In this document: positions 2,895 to 6,684 of the stretch, piece after piece
Layout of the letters: every line of letters begins with the position of its first letter
Numbering within the stretch: the stretch's first letter is position 1
From: Nitrospirae bacterium CG2_30_53_67
GTDB taxonomy: Bacteria; CG2-30-53-67
Reading direction: 5' to 3'
DNA length: 6,684 nucleotides
Assembly (NCBI GenBank): GCA_001873285.1
Contig: MNYV01000063.1
Span: 1-6,684, forward strand
Notes under the pieces: generated by a model
Database searches by the model: none
What the model was told of the DNA's origin: nothing
What the model saw: only the letters and a program-made list of their open reading frames with translations
Program-made: the position numbers and the translations under genes

Positions 2895-4037
2895 TCAACG
2901 CAGGAGTTTCAGGATATTTCGTGCGAGCTTCTCCGGGTCATGGCGAACCTTTTGATCATCGCTTGACAGCAGATCCGCTTCAACAGGATGGACTCCCATC
3001 CTGCGGATTTCTTCTATATCATAGCGCGTGGCTTCGGCCCCTTCGCCGTGGTAACGGGACTTAAGATGAAGGGGAAGCGGGGCATGGTTGATCAGGACAT
3101 GATCAATCAGGCGAAAGCCTGCGTGTTCATGGATCACACGGATATGATCTTCCACGGTGAAGCCCCGTGTCTCCTCCGGTTCAGTCATGAGATTCGCGAC
3201 AAGAATCTTTCCGGCGGGCGATCTTTTGATCGCGTCGGCCACCCCGTGAATCATCAAATTCGGCAGGATGCTGGTATAGAGGCTGCCGGGACCGATGATG
3301 ATCCCATGGGCTTTCTCCAGTGAAGCGATGGACTGATCCAGTGGTCTTGCGCCCTCCGGTTCGATCATGATCCGGCGGATCGGCTTTGGACAGGCATTGA
3401 TCGCGGTCTCGCCCTCGATCATGGATCCGTCGGCAAGCTCCGCCCTGAGAACGGCTTTTTCCAGCGTGGCGGGAAGGATCTGCCCGTTAATAGCCAGGAT
3501 GGAACTGAGGTCCGAGACGGCCTTGAAAAAACTCTGATTGATTTCGGATAAGGCCGCAAGGATCAGGTTCCCGAGACTATGGCCCGAAAGCCCGTTGTCA
3601 CCTTTGAAACGGAATTTCAGCAGCTTCGCCATCAGGGATTCATTCTCGGAGAGTCCGATCAGGCAGTTTCGGATATCCCCCGGCGGAAGGACGTTGAGTT
3701 CATGGCGCAGGCGGCCGGAACTCCCCCCGTCGTCGGTCATAGCGACGATGGCGGTGAGCCGCTCTCTAAAAGACGGCTCGATCATGTTTTTATCGGAATT
3801 CGTGAAGAGGTAGTGTTTCAACCCTCGAAGCAGAACCGGCAGACCGGTTCCTCCGCCGATGGAGACGATACGAAGATGGGGGTCCACCTGAAGCTTCCCC
3901 CCTGAAAGATCCTGCCCGGGTTCCATCTCCCAACGGGTCATCCCGGTATGCGCATCCACTACGGAACGGTAAGAAACCTCCCTGACGATTTCGTTTCCTT
4001 CTTCGTCATAGAGACGGATCGGGATCTTTTTCTCCAT
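2895..4037 (-). CDS. yvcK: YvcK/CofD-like family protein (gluconeogenesis and cell-shape factor)
   Basis: The 380-residue product has the hallmarks of the YvcK branch of the CofD family: GGGTGLPVLLRGL from residue 61, MTDDGGSSGRLR at 100-111, PPGDIRNCL at 118-126, GHSLGN at 152-157, IIIGPGSLYTSILPN at 246-260 and NLMTEPEETRGFTVEDH at 282-298. Characterised members (Bacillus YvcK, Mycobacterium CuvA) are needed for growth on gluconeogenic carbon sources and for normal peptidoglycan synthesis or cell shape, and bind UDP-sugars rather than making a cofactor. Here about 55 residues precede the GGGTG loop, longer than the short leader of many YvcK proteins. This extension (IPIRLYDEEGNEIVREVSYR) is charged and strand-like. 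The ATG at 4037 is the first possible start, since an in-frame stop lies at 4062-4064. It has no evident Shine-Dalgarno sequence. The gene is divergent from the acyltransferase gene and convergent with the HAD gene. Confidence 0.92.
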   Translation of the reverse strand: MEKKIPIRLYDEEGNEIVREVSYRSVVDAHTGMTRWEMEPGQDLSGGKLQVDPHLRIVSIGGGTGLPVLLRGLKHYLFTNSDKNMIEPSFRERLTAIVAMTDDGGSSGRLRHELNVLPPGDIRNCLIGLSENESLMAKLLKFRFKGDNGLSGHSLGNLILAALSEINQSFFKAVSDLSSILAINGQILPATLEKAVLRAELADGSMIEGETAINACPKPIRRIMIEPEGARPLDQSIASLEKAHGIIIGPGSLYTSILPNLMIHGVADAIKRSPAGKILVANLMTEPEETRGFTVEDHIRVIHEHAGFRLIDHVLINHAPLPLHLKSRYHGEGAEATRYDIEEIRRMGVHPVEADLLSSDDQKVRHDPEKLARNILKLLR

Positions 4038-4086: not shown

Positions 4087-4366
4087 CAAGAACCCGGGTG
4101 TGCGACAAATTTGTGGGTAAATATTTCTCTAAGAACGTCATTCCCCGACCCCCCGATCAAGTCGGGGGGCATGCTTGATCGGGGAATCCACCCTTCGGCA
4201 GGCTCAGGGTGACAATTGTCATGGTGAGCTTGTCGAACCATGGATTGTCCGGTCAAGCCCCGGTAAACCGCCCCGGCAAGCCGAGGGCAAGAGGGGAAGC
4301 CGGACAATGACAAACATATATAATCCTGATGTTTACCCATAAATTTGTCGCAGACCCCAAGACCCC
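4087..4366. mobile_element. MITE-like insertion with 26-bp terminal inverted repeats and imperfect 9-bp target duplication
   Basis: The left end (4096-4121) and right end (4332-4357) are inverted repeats matching at 24 of 26 positions. The core TGCGACAAATTT is identical, followed after one mismatch by TGGGTAAA. Immediately outside lie CAAGAACCC (4087-4095) and CAAGACCCC (4358-4366), direct repeats matching at 8 of 9 positions, as expected for a target-site duplication. The element proper is 262 bp, encodes no plausible protein, and fills most of the divergent region between yvcK and the acyltransferase gene. Its interior is the palindromic repeat at 4137-4311. I do not recognise the terminal repeat as a named insertion sequence. 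A caution is that the right flank contains GACCCC twice (4353-4358 and 4361-4366), so the 9-bp duplication could be partly fortuitous. Confidence 0.65.
4137..4311. repeat. Two tandem palindromic repeat modules, GTCATT...AATGAC type, copy 2
   Basis: Module 1 begins at GTCATT (4137) and ends at GGTGACA (near 4214). It holds a stem of ATTCCCCGA (4140-4148) with TCGGGGAAT (4179-4187), stacked on CCCCCCGA (4149-4156) with TCGGGGGG (4162-4169), and then CACCCT (4189-4194) with AGGGTG (4206-4211). Module 2 begins at TTGTCA (near 4216) and ends at AATGAC (4306-4311). It holds CATGGT (4220-4225) with ACCATG (4237-4242), and ATTGTCCGG (4244-4252) with CCGGACAAT (4300-4308). The modules meet at a perfect 12-bp palindrome, TGACAATTGTCA (4210-4221). 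Words such as CCTTCGGCAGGCTCAGGGTG and GTGAGCTTGTCGAACCAT are, as I recall, common intergenic repeats in environmental bacterial genomes. Module 1 shares 16 identical bases with 1918-1933. Confidence 0.85.
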
Positions 4367-4373
4367 ATTCATC

Positions 4374-4402
4374 TTGCCTTTTTCATTAATGAATGCTAAC
4401 AT
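4374..4402 (+). promoter_or_regulatory. Likely extended -10 promoter of the acyltransferase-hydrolase gene
   Basis: TTGCCT (4374-4379) is spaced 17 bp from TAACAT (4397-4402), which is preceded by TGC (4394-4396), an extended -10. A start near 4409 would give a leader of about 25 bases. The spacer contains a perfect 12-bp palindrome, TTCATTAATGAA (4382-4393), a possible operator. The promoter begins 8 bases beyond the right flank of the insertion at 4087-4366, so the insertion may have changed what lies upstream of it. Confidence 0.45.
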
Positions 4403-4433: not shown

Positions 4434-6684
4434 ATGGAGATTTCAAGAAAGGGCATCCCCTGCATGATCACCCAAAATGATCTCGTGATCAGCGAGAAAA
4501 ATTATAAAAGGACCCGCCTTGTCCTCGACATCCTTCGCCGGTTTCTCAAGGTCAACATCAAGGTCCATAACCTGACCGGCCAGTTTGAAACAGGGGACAT
4601 TTTCCTTTTTAATCATTTCGCCCGCTTTGAGACCTTTATCCCACAGTACCTGATCTTTGAGGAGACCGGGAAGATCAGCCGTTCCCTCGCCGCTCCCGAA
4701 CTGTTCAGGGATGATACCTTCGGAAAATATCTCATGAGTATCGGCGCTGTTCCCACGAATCTGCCGGACATTATCCATTTTATGGCCTGTGAGATCAACC
4801 GCGGATACAAGACCATTATATTTCCGGAAGGTTCCATGATCAAGGACCGGCGGGTTTTAGGACCCAAAGGCCGTTTCCGGATCTATGCAAGAGAAGAAAA
4901 GACCTACCGCAAACCGCACACGGGAGCGGCGGTGATCGCCCTTTATGCCCAGCAGTTGCGAGACCTTTTCATCCTGACTTATGAGAGGAAAAATCAAAAA
5001 ACCCTCAAGCAAATTTCATCCCTGTTTAAGATCGATGACCCTGAGCGATTCCTCTCGACCGCATCCCGGCCGGTGATGATCATCCCTGCCAACATCACGT
5101 TTCACCCCTTGCGGGGGGATGATAATTTTCTCAGAAAGATTTCAGAACGCATGGGAAGGATCAAGAACAACCGGATGGAAGAGGAACTGATCATAGAAGG
5201 GAATATCCTGTTCAAGGATACGGACATGGATATCCGGCTCGGAGATCCCATTCCGGTCAAGGACTATCTCGGCCGCACGGATTCCTTGCTCTTAAAATCG
5301 AGATATTTCATGATGAATGAAGCGATGCTGAAAGGCGCGGCCACCCGCCTGCTCAACCGCCTGGAGATCGTCCGTTCAGAGATCCTTTCCGAACGGATCA
5401 TGACCCAATACATGAAATCCATCTACTCCCTGGTGACCGTCAATATGGAACACCTCTGTGCCGAGATCATCTATGAGCTGATCCGGAAATATAAACAGCG
5501 TGAGGTGTCCAAAACTTTTTTTGTCCGCTCCCTTTATCTGACCATTAAGAAGCTTCAGAGAGCCGAGGGCGTTTTTCTTCACCGCGGTCTTCAGAACCCG
5601 GACCGGTACGATTCACTGCTCAAGTTCACCAACCGGGACCTCAGGGACTTCTTGATCAATGCGGCAGCTTCCGGGCTGATTCAGGAGAAGGATCATCAAT
5701 ACCTATTCCTGCCGGCGCTTGAGCAGAGCTACGACTTCGACGTCATTCGTATCAAGAACTTCATCAAGGTCCGCTACAATGAGGTTCAGCCCGTTCCTGC
5801 GGTCAGGGAGATGGTACATGAAGTCCTGACCCAATACGACAAGCTCAACACCCCGCAATCCAGGGCCGCTCTGCTCTATGATGACGACAAGAGAAGCTAT
5901 GTCTGGGATCAGGCCATTTTTTGCAAATCAAAATATGAGGAGATCAACAAGGAGGAAACCAGGGTCCAGCCCGGAGATCCTTTCTTTTTCATACCGGAGC
6001 ATGGCGTTGAACCCAAGGCGGGGGTCCTGCTGATCCACGGGCTGAGCGCCTCCCCTGCCGAGATGAGGCCTCTCGGGGAGTTTCTCTCCGAGCAGGGTCT
6101 TTTTGCCTACGGCGTGCGCCTTAAAGGACACGGCACCTCCCCCTGTGACCTGGATTTCAGAAAAATAGACCAGTGGTATCATTCGGCTTTCCGCGGGTGG
6201 GAAGCGCTTCGATGTTACTGCGATAAGATATTTGTCGCGGGATTTTCCATGGGGGGATGCATCGCATTGAAGCTTGCCGCCGAACATCAGCATGAGGTGA
6301 CGGGGATCGTCTCTATCTCCACACCGCTCCGCATCCGGAATAAGAATATCTTATTTGCAAGCCTCGCCAACCAGATCAACAGGCTGGTGGCCGTCCTTCC
6401 CTACCTCAACGGCATCAAGAGATTCAAAAAATCCTTTCCCGAAAATCCTGGGATCAACTATCAGAACATTCCCATCAGCGCGATCCATGAATTCAAAAAA
6501 CTGATGGAACAGACCGAGGTCTCTCTGGGGGAGATCTACCAGCCGGCCCTGATCATTCAGAGCAAGGGAGACCCCACCGTAGATCCGGTCAGCGCAGAGA
6601 TGATCATGAAAGGAATTACTTCCAAGGACAAACGGCTGCTGCTGATTGATTCAAATAAACACGTCATCGTCCTGGACAAGGGTT
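4434..6684 (+). CDS. PlsC-like acyltransferase fused to an alpha/beta-hydrolase (3' end outside window)
   Basis: The frame is open for 750 codons from ATG 4434 to the right edge. Residues about 40-260 are a glycerolipid acyltransferase domain: NHFARFE (60-66) as motif I, IGAVPTN (103-109) as motif II, FPEGS (130-134) as motif III and IIPANITFHPLR (216-227) as motif IV. Motif I is HX4E rather than the usual HX4D. Residues about 270-510 are a mainly helical middle region that I cannot assign; it may correspond to the C-terminal part of larger acyltransferases. Residues about 525-750 are a monoacylglycerol-lipase/carboxylesterase-like hydrolase: LLIHG (532-536) for the oxyanion hole, nucleophile S605 in GFSMGG, D713 in KGDPTVDP and H743 in NKHVIVLD. 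About 20-30 residues are probably missing. Together they suggest acyl transfer and acyl-ester cleavage on lipids at the membrane. No signal peptide is visible. An in-frame TGA at 4428 rules out an earlier start. M11 (4464), preceded by AAGAAAGGG, is an alternative start. Confidence 0.88.
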   Translation, partial: MEISRKGIPCMITQNDLVISEKNYKRTRLVLDILRRFLKVNIKVHNLTGQFETGDIFLFNHFARFETFIPQYLIFEETGKISRSLAAPELFRDDTFGKYLMSIGAVPTNLPDIIHFMACEINRGYKTIIFPEGSMIKDRRVLGPKGRFRIYAREEKTYRKPHTGAAVIALYAQQLRDLFILTYERKNQKTLKQISSLFKIDDPERFLSTASRPVMIIPANITFHPLRGDDNFLRKISERMGRIKNNRMEEELIIEGNILFKDTDMDIRLGDPIPVKDYLGRTDSLLLKSRYFMMNEAMLKGAATRLLNRLEIVRSEILSERIMTQYMKSIYSLVTVNMEHLCAEIIYELIRKYKQREVSKTFFVRSLYLTIKKLQRAEGVFLHRGLQNPDRYDSLLKFTNRDLRDFLINAAASGLIQEKDHQYLFLPALEQSYDFDVIRIKNFIKVRYNEVQPVPAVREMVHEVLTQYDKLNTPQSRAALLYDDDKRSYVWDQAIFCKSKYEEINKEETRVQPGDPFFFIPEHGVEPKAGVLLIHGLSASPAEMRPLGEFLSEQGLFAYGVRLKGHGTSPCDLDFRKIDQWYHSAFRGWEALRCYCDKIFVAGFSMGGCIALKLAAEHQHEVTGIVSISTPLRIRNKNILFASLANQINRLVAVLPYLNGIKRFKKSFPENPGINYQNIPISAIHEFKKLMEQTEVSLGEIYQPALIIQSKGDPTVDPVSAEMIMKGITSKDKRLLLIDSNKHVIVLDKG

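Follow-up and report, generated by a model that had tools for sequence, protein, structure and literature searches.

A probable ISKra4-family MITE inserted upstream of promoters in Nitrospirae bacterium CG2_30_53_67

In the window, which is the whole stretch of 6,684 nucleotides from Nitrospirae bacterium CG2_30_53_67 that was analysed, we identified a complete MITE copy of 262 bp that carries no gene (4096–4357, + strand). With high confidence we interpret it as a non-autonomous element of the ISKra4 family that is moved in trans and targeted to promoters. The MITE reading follows from multiple gene-less copies with inverted ends, a 9-bp target duplication, the empty site of a sister copy and an autonomous partner, and it bears out the MITE-like, non-autonomous element that a first-pass annotation had proposed from the sequence alone. 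The family assignment is based on 9-bp direct repeats, inverted repeats of 26–29 bp, a partner transposase that scores above its model cut-off, and a 16-bp promoter offset peak in three sets of flanks. The first-pass annotation had also suggested that the termini might define a new family. Instead, the partner encodes an ordinary ISKra4-family (prokaryotic Mutator-like) DDE transposase (NF033572).

Structure and distribution of the element

The left terminal inverted repeat, GGGTGTGCGACAAATTTGTGGGTAAA (4096–4121, + strand), is followed by the conserved subterminal sequence TATTTCTCTAAGA, and the right one, which reads GGGTCTGCGACAAATTTATGGGTAAA on the - strand (4332–4357), is followed inward by the conserved subterminal sequence CATCAGGATTAYATATG. 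The two arms pair at 24 of 26 positions, and pairing is 90% when they are stretched to 29 nucleotides (4096–4124 and 4329–4357). Directly outside them lie the copies of a 9-bp target-site duplication, CAAGAACCC (4087–4095) and CAAGACCCC (4358–4366), which agree at eight of nine positions. The ends and the duplication had been described in the first-pass annotation, with element coordinates that are right to the base. Positions 4131–4318 form a palindromic interior of variable length, composed of REP-like repeats (GTCATTCCCCGA...TCGGGGAATCCA and TGGATTGTCCGG...CCGGACAATGACA) that recur at other loci lacking MITE ends. The region is predicted to fold with -141.4 kcal/mol (z = -11.6), and no Rfam match was found for it.

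An 84-aa mechanical ORF within the element has no Pfam match and no protein family was found for the interval, in agreement with the earlier statement that no gene lies inside. The location between divergent genes was likewise described correctly: a YvcK/CofD-type gene (2895–4037, - strand) lies on one side and a long ORF from 4434 (+ strand) on the other. This ORF (4434–6683) follows the putative target promoter discussed below. A match to Hydrolase_4 (E = 9e-23) identifies its C-terminal part as an alpha/beta hydrolase; its N-terminal ~500 aa have no Pfam match and appear acyltransferase-like by eye.

A 21-nucleotide end pattern, searched with up to three mismatches, gave 46 matches in the 2.36-Mb source genome versus none for a reversed-pattern control, so the ends of the window element recur far beyond chance. 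From these searches 24 copies with paired ends could be delimited in the source genome, ranging from 96 to 262 bp. When direct repeats of 5 to 13 bp were scanned over the 24 copies, 19 had a 9-bp repeat (at least seven of nine bases identical, with all nine identical in 10 of the 19), one had an 8-bp repeat, and other lengths were not represented. In most copies some 45 bases of terminal and subterminal sequence are shared, reading GGGTSTGCGACAAATTTRTGGGTAAATATTTCTCTAAGAGCGTC on one side and GGGTSTGCGACAAATTTRTGGGTACACATCAGGRTTACATATG on the other. Their interiors consist of REP-like palindromes that vary greatly in length and order. Where such interior sequence occurs by itself, 10 of 11 loci checked had no terminal repeat within 300 bp. 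The window holds a second block of the same kind of palindromes (GATCAAGTCGG..., 1845–1967, matching at 85–96%) between a radical-SAM gene and a HAD-hydrolase gene, and MITE ends were not found there. Short direct repeats, AGGGGTCAAGGRGTCAAGGGGTTGAGTGAAGTGCT, are present downstream of the radical-SAM gene in three partly overlapping copies (1726–1815).

An unoccupied site is available for the sister copy L040 (contig C100 of the source genome, G000), which is flanked by GCGGGTTGC on both sides. The orthologous site in a genome of the same genus (L207, G001:C150) reads CATGACACATGACACGCTGGTTGCGGACC, and the L040 allele minus the element and one duplication reads CATGACACATGACCAGCGGGTTGCGGACC; the empty site has a single 9-bp copy, and the two are equal in length. 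For the window copy an empty site was not obtainable, either in the same-genus genome G001, where a yvcK search gave no match, or at the G004 locus, which is non-syntenic and has a different upstream neighbour.

The partner insertion sequence

Complete insertion sequences (ISs) with window-type ends, which the first-pass annotation had proposed to look for, do exist. A Candidatus Tectomicrobia contig (JACPSX010000281, genome G038; L101/L174, 1950–3780) carries one of 1,831 bp, flanked by the duplication CAGCCATCT with identity at nine of nine positions. Its transposase matches the ISKra4 model NF033572 (E = 3.2e-98) with 329.6 bits, which passes the cut-off of 205, and the ORF ahead of it, ORF1, matches DUF6788 (E = 1.1e-26). 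The source genome has a corresponding IS that is split over two contigs. At the end of C177 a terminus lies next to the final 76 aa of a transposase, 66% identical to that of L101, whose ORF runs off the contig; this fragment matches the last 70 positions of NF033572 (E = 2.4e-30) and is too short for the cut-off. At its start, C56 carries the other terminus along with the first part of a DUF6788 ORF. Because both termini are flanked on the outside by the same 9 bp, CTCCTCTTG (nine of nine), the two contig ends are most simply read as one IS insertion whose middle is unassembled. In G001, ten contigs end some 54 bp inside a terminus of this kind, as is typical of an IS present in many copies.

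Two further features were observed. On C177 (L062 2760–2800, together with L188 1–260 on C56), two IS termini are only 9 bp apart, separated by CTCCTCTTG, and the same 9 bp also adjoin the far end of the C177/C56 IS. The end–9 bp–end array could be taken for a circular junction; we set this reading aside because a -35 box in the C56 flank lies at a distance of 16 bp from these 9 bp. The newer IS and the end of an older one both adjoin the 9 bp, at that distance from one -35 box. The array is therefore explained by two insertions in succession, which apparently used one preferred site twice, at the same base upstream of a single promoter. Separately, the contig end at L107 ~8110–8846 (G001:C125) has a regularly repeated sequence, two frames of which encode repeating SQSFIHQVYVSH and RNPLFIKSMSLT peptides, and looks like a CRISPR array.

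In three full ISs (L101 1950–3780, L146 1283–3131 and L169 129–1991), ORF1 overlaps ORF2, the DDE transposase ORF, which is shifted to the -1 frame, and the overlap contains a run of eight or nine A residues. ORF1 is the DUF6788 ORF in L101. This layout suggests that the predicted two-ORF transposase may be made by programmed frameshifting. A pair of ends 1,971 bp apart on C13 of the source genome was rejected as an autonomous copy. Its ORFs, which by eye resemble SmpB and toxin-antitoxin proteins, include no transposase, and the pair is therefore read as two unrelated ends.

Apart from the termini of ~26 bp, the MITE has no sequence in common with the autonomous ISs, which are about 1.8 kb long. 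The link between donor and partner therefore rests on the ends, the duplication length and the common targeting. From these, the enzyme that moved the window element is most likely an ISKra4-family transposase, and we infer mobilisation in trans: the IS transposase would bind the MITE ends and move the MITE, and a staggered cut of 9 bp by the same enzyme would produce the 9-bp duplication.

Insertion upstream of promoters

The first-pass annotation had noted that the element adjoins a promoter, and this position reflects an insertion specificity of the family, which had escaped that annotation. We scored outward flanks at each offset for a -35 hexamer (at least 4/6), a -10 hexamer (at least 4/6) and a spacer of 16–18, with 500 shuffles that move two-base blocks as a simple control. 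At offset 16, sigma-70-like promoters are present at 16 of 56 distinct flanks in the source genome, compared with a shuffled mean of 0.42 per offset and a maximum of 5 at any offset. The peak at offset 16 recurs in the same-genus genome (6/17 flanks) and in the other named genomes (7/50), with shuffled means of 0.15–0.42 per offset across the three flank sets. The MITE family thus lands preferentially 16 bp upstream of the -35 box, and the preference is statistically strong. Among the complete copies, 11 of 24 reach the promoter threshold on at least one side, the window copy weakly. The offset is also seen at ends with an adjacent transposase in other genomes (L139, L141 and L147), and two species have independently acquired insertions at an orthologous promoter, one at 16 bp and the other at 14 bp.

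In the window, a putative target promoter (4374–4402, + strand) begins exactly 16 bp outside the element and consists of the -35 sequence TTGCCT (4374–4379), a 17-bp spacer and the -10 sequence TAACAT (4397–4402). It is a weak match (8/12 positions), and TTGCCT-17-TAACAT is not listed by a scan with a stricter consensus. This promoter-like sequence would be the target of the window insertion and would drive the ORF at 4434. Insertion of this kind would place the element edge 16 bp upstream of the -35 hexamer and leave the core promoter intact.

The same preference is known from complete elements. ISKra4-group elements insert 13–17 bp ahead of the -35 box of sigmaA promoters, and do so on either side if their inverted repeats are near-perfect (Guerillot et al. 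2014, PMC3942029), and the ISKra4 family has direct repeats of 8–9 bp and inverted repeats of 18–39 bp (PMC3942029). The window family resembles the ISKra4 family (p-MULT 4, prokaryotic Mutator-like; PMC3942029) in the length of its inverted repeats, its 9-bp duplication, the NF033572 transposase of its partner, and the placing of element edges 16 bp ahead of sigma-70-type -35 boxes, which may lie on either side; it differs in that the window element is only 262 bp and has no transposase. The two-ORF, -1-frame layout has been described for the ISMich2 group, whereas promoter targeting has been reported only for the ISKra4 group (PMC3942029). The partner ISs combine the two and so sit a little uneasily with the published grouping. 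TnGBS and ISLre2 (p-MULT 3) also have a promoter-upstream target 16 bp from the inverted repeat and duplications of 8–9 bp (PMC3942029). However, their transposase is different (the partner transposase scores 80.6 against NF033529, whose cut-off is 200), and their insertion is oriented, whereas the window family has promoters on either side. As in bacterial MITEs in general, the copies are gene-less, shorter than 300 bp and numerous, with intact inverted ends, a duplication and an autonomous partner in the same genome. Unlike these, the window family inserts at a precise distance from promoters and has an interior of independently dispersed REP-like palindromes.

Alternative explanations and implications

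The very stable predicted fold raises the question of whether the window sequence is a conserved structured RNA or a cis-regulatory hairpin belonging to the region between yvcK and the ORF, in which the two 26-bp arms form a stem and the likeness to a transposon is superficial. The lack of an Rfam match, the great variation in interior length among copies, and the occurrence of the element at unrelated loci, in 24 copies and with 9-bp duplications, all argue against such an origin. It is already refuted by the target duplications together with the empty site of the sister copy, and we give it almost no weight. The REP-like palindromes of the interior, which are also found alone elsewhere, could similarly point to a REP/BIME-like repeat moved by a Y1 transposase (TnpA-REP) rather than by a DDE enzyme. 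Movement by such enzymes is not known to make a target duplication. The copies have 9-bp duplications as well as long inverted ends of the IS type, and because of the duplications this origin is excluded for the whole element, for which we regard it as extremely improbable; it could apply to the interior only.

A different explanation concerns the offset itself. The distance of 16 bp from the -35 box could be set by host selection for a promoter-associated regulatory cassette, acting as a substitute for an UP element, an insulator or a protein-binding site, and not by transposase targeting. The exactness of the offset and a palindromic interior that is common to other dispersed repeats are both compatible with selection of this sort. 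However, full ISKra4-group elements have the same offset without such interiors (PMC3942029), as do the ends adjoining a transposase in L139, L141 and L147, and the independent hits at 16 and 14 bp on one orthologous promoter likewise speak against it. We therefore consider host selection an improbable source of the spacing and retain targeting by an ISKra4-family transposase.

Promoter-upstream targeting of full ISKra4-group elements was known, and the present analysis shows it also for a gene-less derivative at dozens of sites. No description of a MITE version of ISKra4 was found in the open-licence literature searched. A previously unassigned repeat is now tied to a known transposase family, and the tag GGGTSTGCGACAAATTTRTGGGTA can be used to annotate this group of IS and MITE copies, which many uncultivated lineages from groundwater and soil carry. 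The copies may affect the expression of neighbouring genes. It is conceivable, if rather unlikely, that this promoter-homing family constitutes a genome-wide regulatory module, in which long palindromic, REP-like interiors brought to a fixed distance of 16 bp ahead of the -35 boxes of many unrelated genes would replace upstream promoter elements and alter transcription coordinately. With each promoter-upstream copy a strong hairpin comes to lie directly ahead of a promoter that stays unbroken, and this makes the MITE family a natural test of the role of the sequence upstream of the -35 box.
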